This document shows, one piece after another, positions 52,639 through 64,000 of a stretch of 64,000 bases of DNA (position 1 is its first letter; every line of letters begins with the position of its first letter). The notes below the pieces were generated by a model. The model saw only the letters and a program-made list of their open reading frames with translations, searched no databases and was not told the origin of the DNA. The position numbers were made by a program, and so were the translations under genes. The DNA comes from Pseudoalteromonas sp. UG3-2. Lineage in GTDB: Bacteria > Pseudomonadota > Gammaproteobacteria > Enterobacterales > Alteromonadaceae. The stretch is taken from contig NZ_JAWLJU010000002.1 in assembly GCF_037120705.1 (NCBI RefSeq), positions 1,736,001-1,800,000 of the forward strand. Reading direction: 5' to 3'.

Positions 52639-54306
52639 TTATTCGCTAAGGCCTAGTGCGGTGATCATTTTATTAGCGACGTCCACATGGTGTTGTAGCG
52701 TCGAAAATTGCTTGGTTACCCCTTCTGGGCCAAAAGCATAGACCGGCACGGGTGCCGCAGTGTGGGTACCTGTGCCCCAGACTACATTTTGCTCTGCAGC
52801 AATAGCACGGGCGATTTTGCCCGTGTAGTCTTCTTTGGCGTAAACGTAGAAGTCACTGAAGTCTTCAAACGCTGGGATCATCCCCGCGGTTTTGTCATCA
52901 TACACGCTCTGCCCTACCTTCGCGGCTTTATCTATGCTCACTGAGTATGAGGTCATGGCTTCAATGTGGTTTTTCCAGGTTTGTCCAGAAACCGTTTCGT
53001 AAGCCTCATCAGGAGCAGCGGCGCCAAGAATATCAAAGAAGGTACCGGTTTGATTGTAGAGCTTATCGAGCTGCGCTAAAGGACCAAAGTTAAACTTAGG
53101 GTGATAGGCTTTGTTTTCGCCATTCACATGCATGCCATCACCGGGTAAGTACTGCGCTTCAGGACGTTCGTGCTTCGAATAACTAAAACCAAAGCTGCCG
53201 GTTTCGTGGTCAGCAGTCACCACCACTAGGGTGTCGTTGCGATCTTTTACCCACTCGTGCACTGCGGCCACCGCTTCGTCAAACTTAAGCAGCTCGTTTA
53301 GCATCCAACCGGCGTCATTGGCGTGTCCTGCCCAGTCAATCTGACCACCTTCAATCATTAAGAAGAAACCATCTTCATCTTGAGACAGGATATCCAATGC
53401 CTTAACGGTCATTTCTTTTAGCGAAGGTTGGGTACAGCTGTTATCTTGCTGACACGCTTTGTAGGCAATGGCGTCATTCATACCCGAGTTGGCAAACAAA
53501 CCTAATACCTTGTCACCGTCAAAGCTATTTAACTGAGTTTTATCGAACGCCAGACCATAGCCATAGTCGTCTCTGGCTTCGAGTACCAAGTTCTTATCAT
53601 CGCCGCGTTTGGACTTTTTATAGACGTAATTTGGCATCCCTAGTGCCGCTAGTTCAGCTTGTACTTCTGGGTCATCGGCCGTAGTTTGTGGCAAAAATAC
53701 ACGGGCGCCACCAGAGAGCATGACATCAACATTGCCAGAGCTAATTAATTGCTCTGCGATTTCGGCTTCATAGGAACGATGTGGCATATGCGCCGCAAAG
53801 GCCGCTGGTGTCGCGTGGGTAATACGGGTGTCGGAAACCAGTCCAGTGGCTTTACCGGCGGCTTTGGCTTTTTCTAAAATGGTCGCCACCTGGTTGCCCT
53901 CAGCATCAAGGCCAATCATTTCTGAGCCCGCGGCAATACCAGTGGCCAATTGCGTAGCTGAACACGCCGAGTCGGTCACAAGACTGCCGTTGTCGCCGTG
54001 TGGAGCATTAAGAGAAAGCCCTAAGTGGCCGCTGTTGGCAAGTTTTGACAGCGCAGTTTGATTGCCTTTACTGTTATAAACAGAATTAGGGGCACGCTGG
54101 GCATATTCTTCTAATAATCCCACTTGCTGTGGTCCCATGCCATCACCGATCATCAAGATGACGTTTTTTACTTGCGTCACCTCTTGCACAGGGACTTCTT
54201 TAATGACTTCCACCTCTTTGATCACCTCTACGGTCTTGGTGTCGTCATTACACGCGGTCAGTAAAATTGCTGAAACAGTAACGGAGAGTAATTTTTTGTT
54301 CATCAT
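52639..54306 (-). CDS. Alkaline phosphatase lipoprotein (PhoA superfamily)
   Basis: The enzyme releases phosphate from monoesters outside the inner membrane. The N-terminus is a lipoprotein signal with lipobox LTAC (Cys19), followed by a short repetitive linker (VEVIKEVEVIKEV). Metal-site blocks are MIGDGMGPQQVGL at 52-64, the nucleophile motif TDSACSATQ at 111-119 (Ser113), EGGQIDWAGHAND, and VTADHETGSFGF. The 555-residue length is larger than E. coli PhoA and fits marine homologues. The start could be either of the first two in-frame ATG codons. No clear Pho box was found upstream. It lies near a phosphonate locus, suggesting a shared phosphorus-scavenging neighbourhood. Confidence 0.92.
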   Translation of the reverse strand: MMNKKLLSVTVSAILLTACNDDTKTVEVIKEVEVIKEVPVQEVTQVKNVILMIGDGMGPQQVGLLEEYAQRAPNSVYNSKGNQTALSKLANSGHLGLSLNAPHGDNGSLVTDSACSATQLATGIAAGSEMIGLDAEGNQVATILEKAKAAGKATGLVSDTRITHATPAAFAAHMPHRSYEAEIAEQLISSGNVDVMLSGGARVFLPQTTADDPEVQAELAALGMPNYVYKKSKRGDDKNLVLEARDDYGYGLAFDKTQLNSFDGDKVLGLFANSGMNDAIAYKACQQDNSCTQPSLKEMTVKALDILSQDEDGFFLMIEGGQIDWAGHANDAGWMLNELLKFDEAVAAVHEWVKDRNDTLVVVTADHETGSFGFSYSKHERPEAQYLPGDGMHVNGENKAYHPKFNFGPLAQLDKLYNQTGTFFDILGAAAPDEAYETVSGQTWKNHIEAMTSYSVSIDKAAKVGQSVYDDKTAGMIPAFEDFSDFYVYAKEDYTGKIARAIAAEQNVVWGTGTHTAAPVPVYAFGPEGVTKQFSTLQHHVDVANKMITALGLSE

Positions 54307-54443: not shown

Positions 54444-55661
54444 TTACTTAGTGCTTTGCTTCGGCTTTTTAAACAGTTTCGAGATCGGTCGACTGGAAAA
54501 ACCAAATACAAAGATACTCAATAACACCGTGGCCATGGCAATTTGCGTTACTTGCATACCATGACTGACTTCTTCAGTTAGTAACATTAGTGTCAACACC
54601 ACCGATGCCAAGCCCTTGGGGCCAAACCAAGCCAACGTAAAGCGCTCTTTATTGCTAAGCCCTTTGCCAAGTAAACAAATAAACACCGGCAGCAAGCGAA
54701 ACAGTGCTGTTGCTAATAAGGCATAAAGCCAAACTTGCCACTGGGTATTTACTAGCAACACCACACTGGCCGCCAAACCGAATACCACCCAAATCATTAA
54801 TGCCGCAAACTCGGCTAAGTGCTCCCCTTCTTCGATGAGCTGATCTTTAAACTCATCACGGTAGTATTTGTCGAACAATAGGCCGCTAATAAAAGCAGCA
54901 ATAAAGCCACTGCCATGCAGCGCTTGGGTAACGGCAAACACTAAAAACGCAATGCCAACAAAGAGAAACGGGCTGGTTTTGGACGCAAAATAGTGATGGT
55001 TATAGGCTTTTTTTAGCAACCAAATAATCGCCATGGTCAAACCACCAGCCACAACTAGTGCAATGCCCACCTCGCGCGCAAACAAAGCGATAAAAGAGCC
55101 TGTGGTTGGCTGCAGGTTGTCGCTTAACACCGCTAACAAAAATAAAAATGCCGGAATACAGAGACCATCATTTAAACCGCTCTCGACGTTAATGGCCTCA
55201 CGCAACCGACTGGGCACGCCTTTATCGGTTATAAAGGTTTTGCACAAGGTGGCATCAGTGGGAGTGATGATCACCGCCACAATAAAGCTTAACAGCCACG
55301 ATAACTGAAATAAAAAATGCGCCACCGTAGCGGCAAACAGCATCGTAAACGGCAAGCCAATTAATAATTTCAATGGCAATTGAAAACTGTGGGACAACAC
55401 GCGCAGGCGCGTTTTAGCGGCATCTGAGAAAAGGTATATTGCCAAGGTGAGCTCAATAATCGGCAATAATGTTTGCAACCCCGCAATGTCCATACTCAAT
55501 GCCTGCTGGGCAACGGCTGTGTTAGTCCACACCCAGCCAATAGCAAAACCGGTAAGCACAAACCACATCGGCGCAGTGAGTTCCGCACGGTCAAGCTGGC
55601 GTACCGAAATTGAATAAAGAAAAATCGATAACCCGATGACCGCAATCAATATATATATCAC
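54444..55661 (-). CDS. Na+(K+)/H+ antiporter, CPA1 type
   Basis: The 405-residue membrane protein has about 12-13 helices. Family motifs are VIITPTDATLCKTFI (the helix-break region), NVESGLNDGLCIPAFLF with the ion-binding ND pair, and AWFGPKGLASVVLTLML near the end. These match NhaP/CPA1 exchangers, which swap sodium or potassium for protons. It is a single gene transcribed away from the phosphonate locus. The ion specificity cannot be read from sequence. Upstream, 55662-55908 is the shared promoter region with the TonB receptor. Confidence 0.88.
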   Translation of the reverse strand: MIYILIAVIGLSIFLYSISVRQLDRAELTAPMWFVLTGFAIGWVWTNTAVAQQALSMDIAGLQTLLPIIELTLAIYLFSDAAKTRLRVLSHSFQLPLKLLIGLPFTMLFAATVAHFLFQLSWLLSFIVAVIITPTDATLCKTFITDKGVPSRLREAINVESGLNDGLCIPAFLFLLAVLSDNLQPTTGSFIALFAREVGIALVVAGGLTMAIIWLLKKAYNHHYFASKTSPFLFVGIAFLVFAVTQALHGSGFIAAFISGLLFDKYYRDEFKDQLIEEGEHLAEFAALMIWVVFGLAASVVLLVNTQWQVWLYALLATALFRLLPVFICLLGKGLSNKERFTLAWFGPKGLASVVLTLMLLTEEVSHGMQVTQIAMATVLLSIFVFGFSSRPISKLFKKPKQSTK

Positions 55662-55862
55662 CCGTTACTCCCTGTCAGATTAACTTATTTGCATACACCC
55701 TGGTGTCAAAGTATTGCAGATAAATGCATTTAAAACAGCAAAATACGTTTAAATATTCCACCTTATTCTGAGCCCAAATTAATCGACAAATGTAAATCAA
55801 GCAAACTTTCACCTTTATGTCATCGGACTGTAAAAAACCATCATTAGTCTATTTGCAACAAA

Positions 55863-55876
55863 CTGGACTAGACCAG
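55863..55876. promoter_or_regulatory. PhnF-like operator upstream of the TonB receptor
   Basis: CTGGACTAGACCAG is a 14-bp palindrome with only one mismatched pair, 33 bp before the receptor start. Its core TGGACTAGACCA differs at two positions from the TGGTATAGACCA site I recall for the GntR/UTRA repressor PhnF of mycobacteria. A GntR/UTRA gene lies at the other end of this cluster. Confidence 0.55.
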
Positions 55877-55908
55877 AAAACTTAACCCAAACTTTTGAGA
55901 AAAGAGCA

Positions 55909-58704
55909 ATGAAAAAACTAACCCAAATCGCTGCTGCCGTGTTACTCACCACCAGCCCCAGTCTATATGCTGCGACAGGTAAACTCGTTGGTGTTGTAAA
56001 AGACCCACAAAGTAACCTATCTGGCGCCGTTATCTCGGTAAAAGGCCAAGATGTTTCCACTGTATCTGATTATCGTGGTCGCTTTGAGCTGCCAAAACTG
56101 GATGCCGGTCGCTACACCTTAGTCGTGAAGTATATGGGTTATCAGGAAACTGAGCTTGAGGTTGAGGTAGCTGATGGCAAAGTCACTAGGTTGTCTCCCA
56201 TCTTATTAAATCAGCAACAAGCGATGGAAGAAGTGGTCACCGTTGGGCAAATCTTCCGTGGCGAAATGGCCGCTGCAAATAACCAAAAAAATGCCAGCAA
56301 TATCAAAAGTATCATCTCTGCCGATGGAATTGGTAAGTTACCAGACAGAAATGCCGCTGAAGCCGTGCAACGTATTCCAGGTGTGTCGATAGAACGTGAC
56401 CAAGGTGAAGGCCGGTTTGTTGCAGTGCGAGGTTTACCGTCACAATGGAGTTCGGCCAGCATTAACGGTAACCGCCTCCCCACCGCGGAAGAGGAAACCA
56501 CCAGCCGCGCCACGGCATTCGACTTTTTTCCCAGCGAATTGATTGAATTTGTGGAAGTGTCTAAAGCTATTACTCCCGACATGGAAGGTGATGCGATTGG
56601 CGGTAATGTTAATTTCGTGACCAAAAAAGGCGCTGATGATTTTATTCTCAAAACCAACCTTGCTGTGGGCCAAAACGAACTGGCCGATGGCACAAATTAT
56701 TCTGCTAATGTGGTGTACGGCGACCGCCTACTTGACGACAAGCTAGGTTTTATCATTAACGCCACAGCGTGGCAGCGTGATTGGGCAACCGATAACTATG
56801 AGCCTCGTCGTGGTAACGATGGCTTAGGTATTTATCGCTTAGAGCTGCGTGATTATACCGGAACCCGTGAAACTTATGGCTTAAATGGCTCGATGGAATA
56901 TCAGCTTGAAAGCGGCACGCTCAGCGCCAGCGCGCTATATGGCACACTGATTGACGATGAAACCCACTATAAGCACAGACTGCGTTTTGATAAAGACCGT
57001 GCTGAGCTGCAGCATATTCGCAACGAACTCATCACCGAAATGCAAGGCTTTGAAATTGCGGGTGAACATGACTTTGGCTTTGATAAAACGCTCTCTTGGC
57101 AACTCGCGACCTACGAAAATGAGTTCCGCTATGACGACAAACCCAACAGCGATGACAACAGCTATTTTGTCGCCCGTTTTGATCAAAAAAATGTGGGATA
57201 TGTTGGACTTGAAGACCGCGATACCGGTAAAAATTATGCCTACAACCAAGTAGACGGCGGCAGCGATCCTTGGAACGCCATTAGTAATCACTTGCCCTCA
57301 GGATTTACATTCGATCCCAGCAAAATGGGCTTGTCTTGGGTTGAGCTATACAAGGTCTACGTCAACGAAAAAGATAGACTGGTGGCTAATGCCGACTTTG
57401 ACTGGCAATATAATAACCAGCTAGCCGTTAAATTTGGGGCAAAATACCGTGACAAAGTCCGTAAAGCTGACTTTGCCGATGAGTTTTACGCGTGGGACAG
57501 CGAACAATATGGCGCAGCGCCAACGCTTGCAGACTTTGCGCTAAGCGATCAACCCGGTCGCAGCGATTACTTAAGCGAAGCCAAGTTTGATTATCGCACG
57601 CAGTTGTCACAGGTGGCTTCCACCGATGCTCTTGCTCAGTTTTGGACGCAAAATCGTAATAAGTTTAAGCTGGATACGGGTGAATCAGCACTCATCAGCA
57701 ACGGTGGAGCACTGGGCAGAAACTTTGATGTTGAAGAAACCCACACCTCGCTCTACGGCATGGCAACTTACCAAGCCAGCGACAACTGGGAAGTATTAGG
57801 TGGCTTACGCGTTACCCGCACCGATACCGAAGTGTCTGGCTACACCTATTTGGCCGATGAAGACAAAGTTGTTGATACCACCAACAGCAATGACTATTGG
57901 TCAATATTACCCGCACTTCATGTTACCTATCGTGCCAATGACGATACCAATTATCGCCTCGCACTAACTCGCACCTTTGCCCGTCCTGACTTTGGCTCAT
58001 TAACACCAGGCGCAACTTACCTTGAGCAGGACAACCAGCTTAATTCAGGAAATCCAGCGCTCGACCCTACGTACTCAAATAACCTCGACTTGATGGTAGA
58101 ACATTACTTTGACCGCGTTGGTTTGGTCTCGGCGGGGGTATTCTACAAAGATATCCAAGACCCTATATTCCAAGCCACCAGCGTTGGCAATTACAACGAC
58201 AAGCAAGGCGTGACCATCATCCGTCCTGAAAACGGCGATAGCGCTTGGCTTGCGGGCATTGAACTGGCGTTTAATCGCGACCTTGGGTTTATTTCTGACA
58301 GTTTGAGCAACTTTGGGGTAATGACCAATGCCACCTTTATGGACTCTGAAATGCAGATCCCAAAGCGCACAGAAAAAGTGGCTATACCACGTCAAGCCAA
58401 TGAGCTTTACAACTTTACGCTGTATTACGACAACACCCGCTTTGCAGCTCGAATAGCGCTTAATCATAAAGGGGCTTATATCGAAGAGCACGGTGGCGAT
58501 AACCAATCGGATAGCTACTATGGCGCCAACACCAGCGTCGACTTTACGACGTCATACCAACTTAATGAACAAACGTTAGTTTACCTAGAACTGAGTAACC
58601 TCACCAACGAAGCATTGCAGTACTACCAAGGTGAGCAAGGTCGTCCATTACAGGTGGAATACTATGGTATCCGCGGTATGGTCGGCATTAACTATCAATT
58701 TTAA
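55909..58704 (+). CDS. TonB-dependent outer-membrane receptor with carboxypeptidase-like N-domain
   Basis: The 931-residue protein should import a substrate across the outer membrane using TonB. A signal peptide ends near residue 22. A CarboxypepD_reg-like domain follows (GKLVGVVKDPQSNLSGAVIS, about 24-100), then the plug (KLPDRNAAEAVQRIPGVSIE and VAVRGLPSQWSSASINGNR), and a 22-strand barrel ending in GINYQF, with the terminal Phe needed for insertion. It belongs to the large receptors common in marine Alteromonadales and usually linked to carbohydrates. Here it heads a phosphonate-catabolism cluster, so a phosphonate or phosphonate-containing ligand is inferred. An operator-like palindrome precedes it. 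Confidence 0.93.
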   Translation: MKKLTQIAAAVLLTTSPSLYAATGKLVGVVKDPQSNLSGAVISVKGQDVSTVSDYRGRFELPKLDAGRYTLVVKYMGYQETELEVEVADGKVTRLSPILLNQQQAMEEVVTVGQIFRGEMAAANNQKNASNIKSIISADGIGKLPDRNAAEAVQRIPGVSIERDQGEGRFVAVRGLPSQWSSASINGNRLPTAEEETTSRATAFDFFPSELIEFVEVSKAITPDMEGDAIGGNVNFVTKKGADDFILKTNLAVGQNELADGTNYSANVVYGDRLLDDKLGFIINATAWQRDWATDNYEPRRGNDGLGIYRLELRDYTGTRETYGLNGSMEYQLESGTLSASALYGTLIDDETHYKHRLRFDKDRAELQHIRNELITEMQGFEIAGEHDFGFDKTLSWQLATYENEFRYDDKPNSDDNSYFVARFDQKNVGYVGLEDRDTGKNYAYNQVDGGSDPWNAISNHLPSGFTFDPSKMGLSWVELYKVYVNEKDRLVANADFDWQYNNQLAVKFGAKYRDKVRKADFADEFYAWDSEQYGAAPTLADFALSDQPGRSDYLSEAKFDYRTQLSQVASTDALAQFWTQNRNKFKLDTGESALISNGGALGRNFDVEETHTSLYGMATYQASDNWEVLGGLRVTRTDTEVSGYTYLADEDKVVDTTNSNDYWSILPALHVTYRANDDTNYRLALTRTFARPDFGSLTPGATYLEQDNQLNSGNPALDPTYSNNLDLMVEHYFDRVGLVSAGVFYKDIQDPIFQATSVGNYNDKQGVTIIRPENGDSAWLAGIELAFNRDLGFISDSLSNFGVMTNATFMDSEMQIPKRTEKVAIPRQANELYNFTLYYDNTRFAARIALNHKGAYIEEHGGDNQSDSYYGANTSVDFTTSYQLNEQTLVYLELSNLTNEALQYYQGEQGRPLQVEYYGIRGMVGINYQF

Positions 58705-58747
58705 TCCAAGCTCTCTTGATTAAGCCAATTGATATAAACCGGTTGAT

Positions 58748-58770
58748 GGGCAATTCGCATAGGATTGCCC
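58748..58770 (+). promoter_or_regulatory. Inverted repeat between receptor and transporter genes
   Basis: GGGCAAT and ATTGCCC form a 7-bp perfect inverted repeat separated by 9 bp, 44 bp after the receptor stop and 19 bp before the transporter start. It may be an attenuating hairpin that lowers expression of the downstream genes relative to the receptor, or an operator. There is no T run. Confidence 0.4.
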
Positions 58771-58789
58771 TCGAATTACCGAGGATCCT

Positions 58790-60136
58790 ATGATGTTGCA
58801 GATCACACTATTTAACGCCCGCCCGCGCTGGCTAAAGGATGCCCAAGGTTTCGGCTTTGTCCTGTTCGCCGCGACCAGTGCGTTTATGACTTACTTTTGT
58901 ATGTACGCCTTTCGTAAGCCATTTTCGGTCAATACCTATGAAGCCTTTGATGACCCGAGCTGGGTTGTTAGCTTTAAAATTGCCCTGATCCTATCGCAAG
59001 TGTTTGGCTACCTATGCGCGAAATTTATCGGCGTTAAAGTGATTGCTGAAGTGCAGCATCATTATCGCGGCCGTGCAATTTTAGGCATGATTTTAACTGC
59101 TGAGATTGCACTGGTGCTATTTGCCATCACCCCCACGGGCTGGAATCTGGTTTGGCTGTTTGCCAATGGCCTCTCCCTTGGCATGATCTGGGGGCTGGTT
59201 TTTAGCTTTTTAGAAGGTCGTAAAACCACCGAAATCTTAGGTGCGGTACTTAGCGTGACTTTTATTCTTGCCTCTGGGTTGGTTAGAACTGTGGGCAAAT
59301 GGCTGGTGACCGAGCTCAACGTGCCTGAACTTTGGATGCCGGCAGCAACCGGAGCGATTTTTCTGCCGCTGCTTGTACTCAGCGTAGCTTGTCTTAATAG
59401 TATTCCTGAGCCCACACAAGAGGATGAGCAATTACGACAAAAGCGCGCGCCAATGGATGGTAAGGCAAGACTGGCGTTTTTTAAACAGTACTGGTTTGGA
59501 ATAACCGTACTGGTGCTTAGCTTTTTACTCTTTACTGGCTTTCGTGACTTTAGAGATAACTTCTCAGCCGAGATCTGGCAGGCCTTAGGATATGGGCAAG
59601 AGCCCGCGATTTTTGCTTATGCCGGGATCCGCATCGCCTTTATCGTACTCATTGCGCTTGCCGCTTTGGTATTAATTAAAAATAACCGTATCGCATTTTT
59701 TGCCAATCATGGCTTTGTTTTACTCGGGGCTTTACTGCTGGCTGGCAGCACCTATTTATACCAGATCCAAAGTCTCGATCCTAAAACGTGGATGGTACTG
59801 CTGGGAGCTGGTCTTTATATCAGTTATATCCCCTATAACTGCCTTTTGTTTGACCGCATGATCTCAGCGGTTGGCTCAACTGCGAACGCCGGTTTTTTGA
59901 TTTATCTGGCGGATTCGGCGGGCTACATCGGCTCTGTGGGCATTTTGCTTTATAAAACCTTTGCCACACCGGAGCTCAGTTGGCTGCACTTTTTTACCAT
60001 GGCTTGCTACTGGGTAGCGTTTATCGCAAGCGCCCTGGTCCTGAGCTCAATTATTTACTTTGCCGTGAAATTAAAGCGACCACGTAAGGCGTCAACGCAA
60101 GTAAGCACCACGGCACTATCATCACATATTTCCTAG
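58790..60136 (+). CDS. DUF5690 family MFS-like inner-membrane transporter
   Basis: The 448-residue protein has about 12 membrane helices in the MFS pattern. The blocks TYFCMYAFRKPFSV, KFIGVKVIAEVQHHYRGR, GMIWGLVFSFLEGRKTTE and FRDFRDNFSAEIWQALGYG match the DUF5690 family as I remember it, whose function is not established. The cluster has no ABC transporter, so this protein is the only candidate for carrying the phosphonate across the inner membrane. A GAGGATCCT site precedes the ATG; a second ATG follows at once. It ends 17 bp before phnX. Confidence 0.82.
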   Translation: MMLQITLFNARPRWLKDAQGFGFVLFAATSAFMTYFCMYAFRKPFSVNTYEAFDDPSWVVSFKIALILSQVFGYLCAKFIGVKVIAEVQHHYRGRAILGMILTAEIALVLFAITPTGWNLVWLFANGLSLGMIWGLVFSFLEGRKTTEILGAVLSVTFILASGLVRTVGKWLVTELNVPELWMPAATGAIFLPLLVLSVACLNSIPEPTQEDEQLRQKRAPMDGKARLAFFKQYWFGITVLVLSFLLFTGFRDFRDNFSAEIWQALGYGQEPAIFAYAGIRIAFIVLIALAALVLIKNNRIAFFANHGFVLLGALLLAGSTYLYQIQSLDPKTWMVLLGAGLYISYIPYNCLLFDRMISAVGSTANAGFLIYLADSAGYIGSVGILLYKTFATPELSWLHFFTMACYWVAFIASALVLSSIIYFAVKLKRPRKASTQVSTTALSSHIS

Positions 60137-60153
60137 CTAGGAGTCTTAGCAAC

Positions 60154-60963
60154 ATGAAACACATTGAAGCGTTAATTTTGGATTGGGCTGGTACTGTGGT
60201 CGACTATGGTTCGATTGCCCCCACCAGCATTTTTGTTGAAGCATTTAAGCAGGCGTATCAATTTGATATTTCCTTAGCTGAAGCGCGCGGCCCGATGGGT
60301 ATGGGCAAATGGGATCACATTAATACCTTGCTGCAAATGGACAGCGTCCGCACCCGCTGGATAACGCAATTTGGTCAGGCACCGAGTGCGGCAGATGTTG
60401 ACCATATTTATCAAACCTTTATGCCACTTCAGCAAGCAAAAGTCGCCGACCGAGCAGCCCCCATTCCGGGCGTACTTGCGGTGATCAAACGTTTGCAACA
60501 ACAAGGCGTTAAGATTGGCAGTTGCTCTGGGTATCCCAAGCCGGTGATGGACGTACTAGTGCCTGCCGCTGCCGATTATGGTTACCAGCCAGATTGTGTG
60601 GTTGCCAGTGATGAGTGCGTGGCTGGCTCTCGCCCTGGCCCTTGGATGGCGCTAGAAAACGTACAACAACTTGGAATAAATCGCGTATCAGGATGCGTAA
60701 AAGTCGATGATTCCGCACCGGGAATTAGCGAGGGGTTAAATGCCGGCATGTGGACCGTTGGACTTGCGTTAACGGGTAATGCGGTGGGGCTTAGCGAAGA
60801 AGAATGGACTGCGCTCAGTCACGAAGAGCAAAGAGCACGCTCACTGAGTGCCTATCAGCAGCTTGGCGAGGCCGGTGCGCATTATGTGATTGATTCACTT
60901 GCCGACATCGAAATGGTCTTGGTGGATATTTCTGCTCGTATCGCCCGTGGAGAGCGCCCGTAA
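60154..60963 (+). CDS. phnX: Phosphonoacetaldehyde hydrolase PhnX
   Basis: PhnX, a HAD-superfamily enzyme, breaks the C-P bond of phosphonoacetaldehyde to give acetaldehyde and phosphate. The opening block LDWAGTVVDYGS carries the Asp10 nucleophile and the Ala12 typical of this branch. RGPMGMGKWDH contains Lys52, the Schiff-base lysine that sets PhnX apart from other HAD proteins. Later blocks GSCSGYPKPVMDVL, DECVAGSRPGPWM and VKVDDSAPGISEG complete the fold. Length 269 is normal. It is coupled to the next gene by a TAATG overlap. Identification is strong. Confidence 0.95.
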   Translation: MKHIEALILDWAGTVVDYGSIAPTSIFVEAFKQAYQFDISLAEARGPMGMGKWDHINTLLQMDSVRTRWITQFGQAPSAADVDHIYQTFMPLQQAKVADRAAPIPGVLAVIKRLQQQGVKIGSCSGYPKPVMDVLVPAAADYGYQPDCVVASDECVAGSRPGPWMALENVQQLGINRVSGCVKVDDSAPGISEGLNAGMWTVGLALTGNAVGLSEEEWTALSHEEQRARSLSAYQQLGEAGAHYVIDSLADIEMVLVDISARIARGERP

Positions 60964-62381
60964 TGCGTTTTCAGCCTTTTTGGTTTGATGAAGCAATCAC
61001 TCAAACCGATATTGAAGCCGCAGCAAGCGCGCCGCCTCATGGCGCGTTGGATACCCAAGTTTGTATCATAGGTGGCGGCTTTACTGGCCTTTGGACAGCC
61101 ATAGCGCTGAAAAAGCAAAAACCTGAGCTGAATATCGCCATTATTGAAAAAGACCTCTGTGGACAAGGCGCCTCGGGGCGTAATGGTGGAGCTATGCTGA
61201 CATGGTCGACTAAATTTGCCAGCTTAATTAAAGAGTTTGGCTTAGAGCAAGCCTGCTTTTTAGTACGCCAGTCAGAGCAGGCCGTTCATGATATTAAAGC
61301 CTTTACCAGTAAACACGGGATTGAATGTGATTGCCGTGTTGATGGTGCTTACTATACGGCTTCAAATCACAGCCAGCGCAATGCCTTTGGCCCCATTATC
61401 ACCCTACTCGAGCAACACCAGCTTAATGCGTGGCAAAGACTGGATAAATCGCAGTTACAAGCAACCGGCTCTAATGCCAACCTTGCTGGAATTTACTCCC
61501 CCCACGGGGGTAGTGTTCAACCCGCCAAGCTTGTGCGTGGACTAATGAAGGTGGCAAAAACCCTTGGGGTCAAGGTATTTGAACACACCCGCTACCTAAA
61601 GCACCAAGGCCAAGACACACTAACCATTACCACAGACAAAGGCGAGATCAGAGCCAATCAGCTGGTGTTTGCCGTTAATGCTTGGCTGCCAAGCTTATTG
61701 CCGCAATTTTCTCGCAGCGTGGTGTTGGTTTCGAGCGATATGGCGATCACCACACCAGCACCTGAAAAGCTTACGACAATGGGGTTGAACCATGGTGCTC
61801 CGGTGATTGATGCACGTATTTTTGTGAATTACTACCGCACCACCTCATGCGGTCGATTAATGCTTGGCAAAGGCGGGAACTATTTTAGTTTCAATAACCA
61901 AGTGAGAGACACCTTTCACCGCGCTAGCCGTTATCAAGCCATTCTTGAGCGCTCATTTAGCCATTTCTTTGCACATCACCAGCTTGAGATAGAAAGAACC
62001 TGGACCGGCCCCTCAGACCGAAGTGTTTCTGGCATGCCTTTCTTTGGTCACTTAAATGGTCAAGCTAATGTCTTTTATGGCAGCGGCTACTCGGGCAACG
62101 GCGTAGTGCAGTCCTATTTAGGTGGGCAAATCTTAGCGAGTCTACTGCTTAACCAACAGAACGACTGGCGTCACTGCGCTTTAGTCAACCAAACGCTTAA
62201 ACAGTTCCCCGTCGAGCCATTTCGCACCGCGGGGGCTTTAATGGTGAGAAATGCCATTCGCCGTAAAGAAAACGCAGAAGATAACAATATGCCACCGCAT
62301 AAACTCGATGTTTGGCTAAGCAAGCTTAGTGGCAGCGCAGCTAAATTAGATCCGAACGTGAAGCAGGAGTATATAAAGTGA
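60963..62381 (+). CDS. FAD-dependent amine oxidoreductase (DAO family) paired with PhnX
   Basis: The 472-residue flavoenzyme has the N-terminal dinucleotide motif VCIIGGGFTGLWTAIAL (glycines at 37-42), the block CGQGASGRNGGAMLTW, and the C-terminal FAD/substrate block FYGSGYSGNGVVQSYLGG. This layout matches PuuB/GbuB-type amine oxidases. Because it overlaps phnX (TAATG) and no PhnW transaminase is present, I infer that it oxidises 2-aminoethylphosphonate or an N-methyl form to phosphonoacetaldehyde. I recall reports of FAD enzymes (named PbfC and PbfD) in phosphonate clusters with such activity. Substrate is not proven by sequence. Confidence 0.88.
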   Translation: MRFQPFWFDEAITQTDIEAAASAPPHGALDTQVCIIGGGFTGLWTAIALKKQKPELNIAIIEKDLCGQGASGRNGGAMLTWSTKFASLIKEFGLEQACFLVRQSEQAVHDIKAFTSKHGIECDCRVDGAYYTASNHSQRNAFGPIITLLEQHQLNAWQRLDKSQLQATGSNANLAGIYSPHGGSVQPAKLVRGLMKVAKTLGVKVFEHTRYLKHQGQDTLTITTDKGEIRANQLVFAVNAWLPSLLPQFSRSVVLVSSDMAITTPAPEKLTTMGLNHGAPVIDARIFVNYYRTTSCGRLMLGKGGNYFSFNNQVRDTFHRASRYQAILERSFSHFFAHHQLEIERTWTGPSDRSVSGMPFFGHLNGQANVFYGSGYSGNGVVQSYLGGQILASLLLNQQNDWRHCALVNQTLKQFPVEPFRTAGALMVRNAIRRKENAEDNNMPPHKLDVWLSKLSGSAAKLDPNVKQEYIK

Positions 62382-62491
62382 ATGCCATTATCGCGTTGCG
62401 CCGTTTTGATGATTTAGGAAAAGATCCGTGTTTAACCGTTTTACCTAGCAGTTATTGGTTTAGTCAGATAGAAGCCTATTTGGCGAGTTAG
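62378..62491 (+). CDS. 37-codon ORF translationally coupled to the FAD enzyme
   Basis: A GTG at 62378 overlaps the stop of the FAD gene (GTGA), and AGGAG lies about 9 bases before it. The frame runs 37 codons and ends at TAG 62489-62491, containing segments such as MNAIIALRRFDDLG and SSYWFSQIEAYLAS. The good ribosome site and 4-bp overlap argue for real translation. The product has no membrane helix or motif I recognise. It could be a small accessory protein, a truncated gene start, or chance. Then 80 bp separate it from the regulator gene. Confidence 0.45.
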   Translation: MNAIIALRRFDDLGKDPCLTVLPSSYWFSQIEAYLAS

Positions 62492-62572
62492 GCCAATCTG
62501 ATTTTACAAGTCATATTTATCCTGTCATAAAACGATAGTAAGCTTGTCACAAAAGGTTTTATCGACTCTATT

Positions 62573-63265
62573 ATGCTGCTTTATCAACGTATTCGAAACC
62601 ATATCCAAACGCTGCTAGCCGCTGGCAGCATGACGCCCGGTGCTAAATTGCCTTCAGAGCGTGCGCTGCAAGAAACATTTAGCTCAACACGGATCACCGT
62701 CCGTGAAGCCCTTGCACGACTAGAAGCCGAAGGACTTATCTTTAGCCAAAAGCGTCGCGGCTGGTTTGTCACGCCGGAAAAACTCAAATGGCATCCAGCT
62801 AAAAAAGTGAACTTTAACCACCTTGCCATTGAGCAGGGTTTTACGCCAACAACTCAAGTGGTAGCAATCAATCTTCCTTCCACTGCCCCTGAGTTTAGCG
62901 ACTCATATTTTGACGGCCAGCCGGTGTATGAATTAACCCGAGTACGCGCGTTAGATGGTCGCGCAATCATGATGGAACAGATCTATTGTGCAGCCGAACG
63001 TTTTGCCGACTTACATAACCAACCGCTGGATGGTTCTATCACAGAAGTGATGTCGACCCACTACCAAGTTGACGTCAGCTTTGAACAGTGCGTGATAAGC
63101 GTCACCGTGCTACCCGATGATGTTGCCGACAAATTAGAAAAGAACAACGGCGCACCTTGCTTAAAGGTACTGCGCGCCCGCTATGACGCCGAGCAAGCAT
63201 TGGTGGATTACAATATTGAATATTGGCTCCATGACGCCATCGAGATGATTGTTGAGGGCGTGTAA
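62573..63265 (+). CDS. GntR-family regulator with UTRA domain (PhnF/PhnR-like)
   Basis: The 230-residue protein has an N-terminal winged helix (KLPSERALQETFSSTRITVR and EALARLEAEGLIFSQ, residues 1-72) and a C-terminal UTRA ligand domain of the HutC type (about 85-228, with PVYELTRVRALDGRAIMMEQ). Regulators of this type often control phosphonate genes. It ends the cluster and probably represses the upstream operon until a phosphonate or its breakdown product binds. A palindrome before the receptor gene is its likely target. I see no copy of that palindrome before its own start. Confidence 0.9.
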   Translation: MLLYQRIRNHIQTLLAAGSMTPGAKLPSERALQETFSSTRITVREALARLEAEGLIFSQKRRGWFVTPEKLKWHPAKKVNFNHLAIEQGFTPTTQVVAINLPSTAPEFSDSYFDGQPVYELTRVRALDGRAIMMEQIYCAAERFADLHNQPLDGSITEVMSTHYQVDVSFEQCVISVTVLPDDVADKLEKNNGAPCLKVLRARYDAEQALVDYNIEYWLHDAIEMIVEGV

Positions 63266-63280
63266 CCCTCATACACGTAG

Positions 63281-63298
63281 GTCGTGCTTTAGCACGAC
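63281..63298 (+). terminator. Hairpin after the GntR gene
   Basis: GTCGTGCT and AGCACGAC form an 8-bp perfect stem with a 2-nt loop, 15 bp beyond the regulator stop. There is no T run. The motif resembles short palindromes that are dispersed in many gammaproteobacteria, so it may be a repeat as well as a transcript end. Confidence 0.5.
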
Positions 63299-63393
63299 AA
63301 CCTTTCCTATCACCTGCGGTTGTCCTATTTTAGAAATAGCGCTAAGTTTAAATTCGGTACTCCCACATTTGACAACTGCAAGGAACATCAAGA

Positions 63394-63474
63394 TGGCTAA
63401 TTTTAATGAGCGACTTAAAAGCCTAGATCTGAGCCGAATAACACAGTTACACTTTAGCCACAATGATGTTTAAA
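63394..63474 (+). CDS. Possible 26-codon small ORF
   Basis: ATG near 63394 follows AAGGAACATCAAG, a good ribosome site, and reads MANFNERLKSLDLSRITQLH and a few more residues to a TAA near 63472. It is short and resembles nothing I know. It may be the surviving start of a deleted gene, given that the DNA to the right is AT-rich and accessory in character. Weak support. Confidence 0.25.
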
Positions 63475-63549
63475 CGTGGGGCTTGATTGATAAAGTCAGT
63501 TGCGAATAACCCTCATTAGAAAACAAGATTGGAAATACGGAATTAGCTA

Positions 63550-64000
63550 ATGAAAAAAGTGCATGAATGGATTATGGCTCCTCACATGATAGAAACGTCC
63601 TATGCATACCTCTTATCGTCCAAATTGATGTGGCAACACAATATAACTGTTTCAATTGTTCACGCAGCACTATCGTTAGAAATATTGTTTAAAAGCTTTC
63701 ATGCTGAAGTATCCGGTAATGAAGGGCAAATAAACGAAAAATATAAATTAAAAACTGATGGTATCCTAAAAGGTAATGGCAAACATGATTTATTGAGCCT
63801 CTATGATTCACTACCAAAAGATATCAAGCGCTTGTTTGAAAGTGACTTTACTAGAGACATGCTTACAAAATACCGCAAAGTTTTTGTGGATAGTAGATAT
63901 GTTTATGAGAGGGGTGCTATTTCTGGGGGGTCAGATGCACTGGCATCAATTGCTGATAAGTTGATCAGAAAAACTGTTGAAATATACAAACAGCGTGGGT
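63550..64000 (+). CDS. Possible HEPN-like protein, N-terminal part
   Basis: The frame is open from ATG 63550 to the window edge (150 codons). It begins MKKVHEWIMAPHMIETSYAY and looks all-helical. The combination of VHAALSLEILFKSFHAE, KHDLLSLYDSLPKDI and KVFVDSRYVYERG resembles HEPN-type helical bundles, which are frequent in defence and toxin-antitoxin systems, but a clear R-x4-6-H catalytic motif is not visible. The DNA is more AT-rich than the phosphonate genes, suggesting transfer. The rest of the gene lies outside the window, so the family is uncertain. Confidence 0.45.
   Translation, partial: MKKVHEWIMAPHMIETSYAYLLSSKLMWQHNITVSIVHAALSLEILFKSFHAEVSGNEGQINEKYKLKTDGILKGNGKHDLLSLYDSLPKDIKRLFESDFTRDMLTKYRKVFVDSRYVYERGAISGGSDALASIADKLIRKTVEIYKQRG

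Follow-up and report, generated by a model that had tools for sequence, protein, structure and literature searches.

Introduction

Aminophosphonates are described as a reduced-phosphorus pool in the sea, with a turnover that has been tracked through the uptake step (PMC8316502). Loci for the degradation of 2-aminoethylphosphonate (AEP) carry three groups of enzymes that use flavin adenine dinucleotide (FAD), as reported by Zangelmi et al. 2023 (PMC10590968); in that account PbfB comes from Vibrio vulnificus, and extracts containing it, together with PhnX, released phosphate from N-methyl-AEP whereas AEP yielded none, PbfD1 belongs to TIGR03364, and phnX clusters without phnW are described, the FAD oxidase PbfD2 being able to stand in for PhnW (PMC10590968). 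Here we describe a phosphonate locus in Pseudoalteromonas sp. UG3-2, within a stretch of 64,000 nucleotides of its 4.16 Mb genome (G000:C2:1736001-1800000, hereafter the window). Genes for a TonB-dependent receptor, a membrane protein of family DUF5690 (PF18943), PhnX, an FAD-dependent oxidoreductase and a GntR/UTRA regulator, with a small open reading frame (ORF) before the last of these, all lie on the + strand, neighbours overlapping or being a short distance apart, and an intact phnW is found about 430 bases past the window end at C2:1800000.

We propose that the locus forms a regulon of PhnR type serving the uptake and hydrolytic breakdown of AEP and N-methyl-AEP with DUF5690 as the importer, a reading to which we assign a probability of roughly three in four, and that DUF5690 proteins are probably aminophosphonate importers in many bacteria. 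The enzymes of the locus are of known kinds; the case for a DUF5690 permease is a strong contextual one, built on gene neighbourhoods, and it is absent from the literature that we searched (a search on DUF5690 and PF18943 found no paper).

Association of DUF5690 with aminophosphonate degradation genes

We examined 80 DUF5690 loci, the best 80 of at least 573 confirmed relatives in named genomes, which lean towards the window's own kind. Genes were labelled with profiles built for this study and score limits of our choosing, curated models being applied only to chosen proteins. At least one aminophosphonate-degradation gene lies within about 10 kb of DUF5690 in 60 of these loci, and in 47 of 67 when L038–L050, the loci nearest to the set in which the operator described below was discovered, are left out. 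The distance to the closest of them has a median of 23.5 bases and is at most 500 bases in 48 loci out of the 60. PhnX is the commonest type (50 loci), followed by a TIGR03364-type FAD oxidoreductase (33), Phn-HD (31), PhnW (18) and an oxidoreductase of the window's type (15, one of which, in L076, fits L-pipecolate oxidase better). Among the 50 PhnX-type loci 38 score at least 349 bits, and a weaker one, L090, proved when tested to be TIGR03351 and not TIGR01422. Six further loci encode PbfA (L070, L072 and L080, that of L070 assigned by our own profile only) or an HpnZ-type protein (L095, L103 and L117, at 294.4–311.5 bits, under the cut-off of 328.1), for a total of 66 of 80. The family thus accompanies different breakdown sets, as would be expected of a shared importer.

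The association between DUF5690 and phnX that the sequence-only reading had put forward as a check is found both in these loci and within the genus. DUF5690 is present in 15 of 36 same-genus genomes, which include all 12 that have PhnX (Fisher 3.6e-7; the Fisher values given here ignore relatedness), and all 12 PhnX copies adjoin DUF5690 by coordinates; the two sets overlap (L038 with L026, for example), and their counts are not additive. None of 24 genomes representing other families within the order has DUF5690. An even draw of 398 Pseudomonadota gives DUF5690 in 10 genomes, PhnX above the cut-off in 39 and both in five (Fisher p 0.0012). The two lie close together in the UG3-2 genome itself, G403 and G430, and a weaker PhnX-like gene adjoins DUF5690 in G146 and G444.

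A shared operator-like palindrome

Comparison of the 400-base stretches 5′ of the receptor gene and of phnW, in the window and 12 relatives, revealed the palindrome TGGTCTAGACCA. With at most one mismatch it precedes the receptor gene in all 13 regions and phnW in 11 of the 13, the exceptions being L045, where there are two mismatches, and L050, where the site is inside a called ORF. The window alone is uninformative in this respect (1.27 chance matches are expected at two mismatches), but in the whole genome there are five places with at most one mismatch, two of which are the receptor and phnW sites, as against two for the reversed control. One of the others, at G000:C2:3159757-3159768, is inside an ORF giving a weak PhnS2 match and is probably there by chance.

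Among the 80 DUF5690 loci the palindrome occurs in all 27 that have a PhnR-like gene and in only two of the 53 that do not; with L038–L050 left out these figures are 14 of 14 and 2 of 53. By comparison, 59 scrambled palindromes were found in at most five of the 27 PhnR-like loci, with a mean of 1.44. The palindrome stands 24–42 bases 5′ of DUF5690 itself in L056, L057, L058, L061, L062, L069 and L085, and in alphaproteobacterial loci it is immediately 5′ of DUF5690. As expected of a PhnR, a conserved operator is found 5′ of the phosphonate genes that would be regulated, here the receptor gene and phnW, and we infer that the PhnR-like protein binds the palindrome. The related regulator PhnF has a similar site; a literature search on PhnF operators found no paper, and one on the operator word itself found nothing relevant.

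Proposed transport role and predicted fold of DUF5690

Motifs of the ATPases of ATP-binding cassette (ABC) systems, a pattern search that can miss some, are found within 6 kb of PhnX in none of 38 loci with DUF5690 and in 15 of 32 without it (Fisher 7.8e-7); leaving out L038–L050, the first figure is 0 of 25. The 38 are those of 84 given loci in which PhnX scores at least 300 bits and DUF5690 is within 6 kb. The 32 derive from 33 PhnX loci in the 34 genomes without DUF5690, minus L224, which is under the score limit, and exclude G251 (at a contig edge) and second copies in G119 and G374.

The sequence-only reading had also held that the uptake systems of ABC type are missing, and this stands as far as the four families searched in the UG3-2 genome, AepX and AepP not having been searched as such. 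There is no PhnJ, and no PhnS2 above the cut-off (the best match is 45.8 bits, against 392.75). Of two matches to PF12974, a PhnD-like family, one is above its cut-off (205.8 bits, at G000:C2:429492-430184). We rejected this protein as the PhnD of a transporter because a sensor-kinase-like gene follows it and no ABC genes are seen by eye among the listed ORFs around it; it is perhaps a sensor.

The DUF5690 protein of the window, which is 98% identical to another Pseudoalteromonas protein (P0001), is modelled with the fold of the major facilitator superfamily (MFS; predicted local distance difference test score 92.7). The nearest fold is that of the glucose-6-phosphate:phosphate exchanger SLC37A4 (G6PT), a member of the organophosphate:phosphate antiporter (OPA) group, and two arginines, R42 and R252, are invariant in 57 sequences. 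Comparison with OPA by hhalign gives a probability of 23.5%, and in weak alignments with OPA exchangers an RK pair in the first helix is in register; another search of the DUF5690 profile against the sequences of the PDB gave no relevant match. The role of inner-membrane carrier suggested for DUF5690 from the window alone has good support from gene neighbourhoods across several phyla, the operator, the mutual avoidance of DUF5690 and ABC genes, and the modelled fold.

In the proposed scheme the TonB receptor would carry the substrate, or a conjugate bearing it, over the outer membrane, and DUF5690 would move the free aminophosphonate over the inner membrane, an import suggested by context and fold and perhaps coupled, as a guess, to an exchange for phosphate. 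By the known chemistry of their families, PhnW would convert AEP, and the PbfB-type flavoenzyme N-methyl-AEP, to phosphonoacetaldehyde, which PhnX would split into acetaldehyde and phosphate. The PhnR-like protein would control both transcripts through the palindrome, a site recognised by its conservation, with binding, repression and an inducer presumed.

Alternative roles for DUF5690

Several observations weigh against this scheme. No aminophosphonate gene was recognised in 14 of the 80 loci, several of which are on short contigs, and in seven of the 60 positive ones Phn-HD is the sole gene of the kind that our profiles labelled, a representative of which scores 189.1 bits, under the curated cut-off of 214.6. 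In the even draw, PhnX is only on another contig than DUF5690 in G203 and G338, and three of the 10 DUF5690 genomes (G341, G183 and G356) have neither PhnX above the cut-off nor a PhnX-like neighbour. The sequence relation to OPA proteins is not significant, with an E-value of 2.8 for SLC37A4 (profile against PDB sequences) and 1.9 for GlpT (BLASTP). The oxidoreductase and the regulator both fall under the cut-offs of their best families (Table 1), and for this reason we name them only PbfB-like and PhnR-like. Finally, a second DUF5690 type within the genus (L032, L034, L035 and L037, in G009, G018, G023 and G013), 38–43% identical to that of the window, has an alkaline phosphatase in three of its four loci and is without phnX.

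This second type favours a different view, in which the cargo of DUF5690 would be other organophosphates, or phosphate and phosphonate esters of a wider range, its adjacency to phnX being one use among several. As seen by eye, L032 and L037 also contain a PhoD-like gene, besides a TonB receptor that is divergent; phospholipase-C-type genes are present in 10 of the 80 loci and PF01663-type phosphodiesterases likewise in 10 of 80; and the nearest fold is that of a sugar-phosphate exchanger. Against this, aminophosphonate genes accompany DUF5690 in most of the loci, as counted above, and even the second type still adjoins a GntR regulator of the PhnR kind (31–32% identical to the window's). We regard this view as unlikely, a minority one that deserves to be kept in mind.

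We also note that a DUF5690 match at G018:C81:19393-20535 has one internal TAA. An alkaline phosphatase gene (PF00245, 277.6 bits) is located at 52639-54306 (-) of the window, upstream of the operon, and the same gene is in the same place in L025 and L026; L032, L034 and L035, where the second DUF5690 type is found, each have an alkaline phosphatase 49–51% identical to it.

A less probable reading still is that DUF5690 exports phosphate, methylamine or some other product, or forms part of a sensor, and that the substrate enters through an ABC or MFS system encoded elsewhere. The sequence does not reveal the direction of transport, and AepX and AepP homologues fall outside our search of the genome; but such a role sits poorly with the avoidance of DUF5690-phnX loci by ABC ATPases, with a genome that has neither PhnJ nor a PhnS2 above the cut-off, and with an operator placed directly before DUF5690 in the alphaproteobacterial loci.

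The flavoenzyme and the phnW gene beyond the window edge

The sequence-only reading had cast the FAD enzyme in place of PhnW, which it took to be missing. PhnW is indeed absent from the 64 kb window, yet the genome-wide search found the intact gene just past its end, so that the replacement claim is an artefact of the window edge and is refuted by the criterion that the sequence-only reading had itself set. Among the 36 same-genus genomes PhnX is above the cut-off in 12 and PhnW in 13, and the 12 are all within the 13. A route free of PhnW, with the FAD enzyme alone feeding PhnX, is highly improbable: the published PbfD2 is capable of it and its gene occurs in clusters without phnW (PMC10590968), and the receptor operon itself lacks phnW, but the adjacent phnW with its shared operator, and the occurrence of PhnW in every one of the 12 genomes of the genus that have PhnX, speak against such a stand-in here, and the nearest studied relative, PbfB, was inactive on AEP in extract assays (PMC10590968). 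The idea of an FAD enzyme replacing PhnW is already in print for other bacteria and is not applicable to this genome.

The best family of the oxidoreductase is TIGR03329, and the protein aligns over 461 columns, at 52% identity, with one from V. vulnificus that scores 781.7 bits to the same family and that appears to be the PbfB enzyme assayed in PMC10590968. The flavoenzyme of the window is thus probably PbfB. Its identification as PbfD was dropped, the enzyme being TIGR03329-like whereas PbfD1 is TIGR03364.

The phnW gene faces the regulator gene. An ORF that lies between them, at 63550-63999 of the window, matches no Pfam family at E 0.001. Among relatives the phnR–phnW gap differs in length, from less than 100 bases up to several kb, and may for that reason be an insertion spot. 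No AEP-biosynthesis genes were recognised among the ORFs beside phnW, which were not run against families. In the thirteenth PhnW genome, G009, the phnW match begins at model position 98; this shortened gene stands beside one reading as phnR (L187:7805-9335), without a receptor operon, and the region is a decaying locus.

The receptor and possible sources of substrate

The operator is followed by the receptor gene, which opens the operon. In the even draw its best matches in G146 and G444, which belong to the same class and another family, are 57% and 55% identical, the next best in each genome being at 30–31%; the G146 match is about 3.5 kb from DUF5690 and that of G444 is on another contig. 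In the other seven of the 10 DUF5690 genomes the best match is at 29–36%, or absent (G203), which is the level seen among receptors in general. The receptor is co-inherited in Gammaproteobacteria, and it is plausible that it serves a phosphonate or a conjugate of one.

The phospholipase-C-type and PF01663-type genes noted above suggest that some lineages obtain the aminophosphonate by cleaving it off lipids or other conjugates; in the even draw, a phospholipase-C-type gene is about 5 kb from DUF5690 in G341. There is no PC-PLC in the UG3-2 genome, and literature searches on TonB with phnX, on phospholipase C with AEP and TonB, and on Pseudoalteromonas with PhnX and TonB found nothing relevant. 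A broader proposal, which we offer tentatively and consider somewhat more apt to fail than to hold, is that DUF5690 proteins are widespread aminophosphonate permeases acting as phosphate exchangers, and that with a dedicated TonB receptor they would form an energised route free of ABC systems. In some lineages this route would be fed by secreted phospholipase-C-type enzymes freeing the head groups of phosphonolipids, and it would serve feeding on the phosphonate-bearing membranes or glycans of other organisms. If DUF5690 is a carrier, a family without an assigned function becomes a marker of a route missed by ABC-based surveys, one that would span Pseudomonadota, Bacteroidota and others.

Features of the locus

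The six features that had been read from the window alone (receptor, DUF5690, PhnX, FAD oxidoreductase, small ORF and GntR/UTRA regulator) are borne out, and their coordinates are collected in Table 1 with those of phnW and the two operator-like sites.

Table 1. Coordinates and assignments of the features of the phosphonate locus; positions are those of the window unless a contig is given.
Feature	Coordinates	Strand	Basis
Operator-like palindrome TGGACTAGACCA (1 mismatch to TGGTCTAGACCA)	55864..55875	.	33 bases 5′ of receptor start codon
TonB-dependent receptor, 931 aa	55909..58704	+	TIGR01782, 480.7 bits (cut-off 310); TonB barrel, plug and CarbopepD_reg_2 domains
DUF5690 membrane protein, 448 aa, proposed aminophosphonate permease	58790..60136	+	PF18943, 512.9 bits; MFS model; neighbours in 80 loci
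phnX, phosphonoacetaldehyde hydrolase, 269 aa	60154..60963	+	TIGR01422, 330.1 bits (cut-off 220, far above)
FAD-dependent aminophosphonate oxidoreductase, PbfB-like, 472 aa	60963..62381	+	TIGR03329, 610.3 bits (just below cut-off 632.8)
Small ORF, 37 codons, 3′ remnant of Phn-HD (HD-domain) gene	62378..62491	+	blastn of the gap against L038–L041; translation
GntR/UTRA regulator, PhnR-like, 230 aa	62573..63265	+	best NCBIfam TIGR03337, 219 bits (cut-off 296.75); GntR and UTRA domains
phnW, outside the window	G000:C2:1800427-1801524	-	576.3 bits (cut-off 400.8); open frame
phnW operator, outside the window	C2:1801546-1801557	.	palindrome search of the genome

The small ORF was rejected as a working gene, since it is the remnant of a longer HD-domain gene of near relatives. 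In P. flavipulchra, P. piscicida and P. peptidolytica (L039–L041) a Phn-HD type ORF of 182–204 aa lies between the oxidoreductase and the regulator, and the window is missing about 435 bases relative to L039 that are present also in L040, which leaves the 37 codons. The gene is in an 87-aa form in L038, shortened differently from that of the window, and none was found by our own profile in L042–L045; the Phn-HD type gene is dispensable in the clade of the window and L038–L045. A consensus scan of 55600-64000 found fewer promoter-like sites than shuffled sequence (seven, compared with 12.4) and more terminator-like ones (15, compared with 9.6); neither set was used for any assignment.

Comparison with known systems

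The carrier closest in setting is AepP of Pseudomonas putida, which is likewise an MFS carrier encoded beside AEP-degradation genes and is related to the organophosphate:phosphate antiporter GlpT (PMC8316502). AepP is 27.75% identical to GlpT (PMC8316502), whereas DUF5690 has no significant GlpT match and constitutes a Pfam family of its own. SLC37A4/G6PT and GlpT, as OPA exchangers, resemble DUF5690 in predicted fold, that of G6PT being the nearest, without a significant relation in sequence. The transport slot that DUF5690 would occupy is filled in other phosphonatase loci by ABC importers of the AepXVW, AepSTU and PhnSTUV types, whereas the 38 DUF5690 loci have no ABC ATPase motif within the 6 kb around PhnX. 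The closest enzymatic parallel is the PhnW–PhnX pathway with its PbfB, PbfC and PbfD enzymes (PMC10590968). The window locus belongs to it by PhnX and PhnW, which both score above their cut-offs, and it likewise brings together PhnX, PhnW and an FAD enzyme of PbfB type, the last being an accessory enzyme that would extend the substrate range to N-methyl-AEP. It differs in that the main text of that paper mentions neither DUF5690 nor TonB, both of which are fixed parts of the locus described here.

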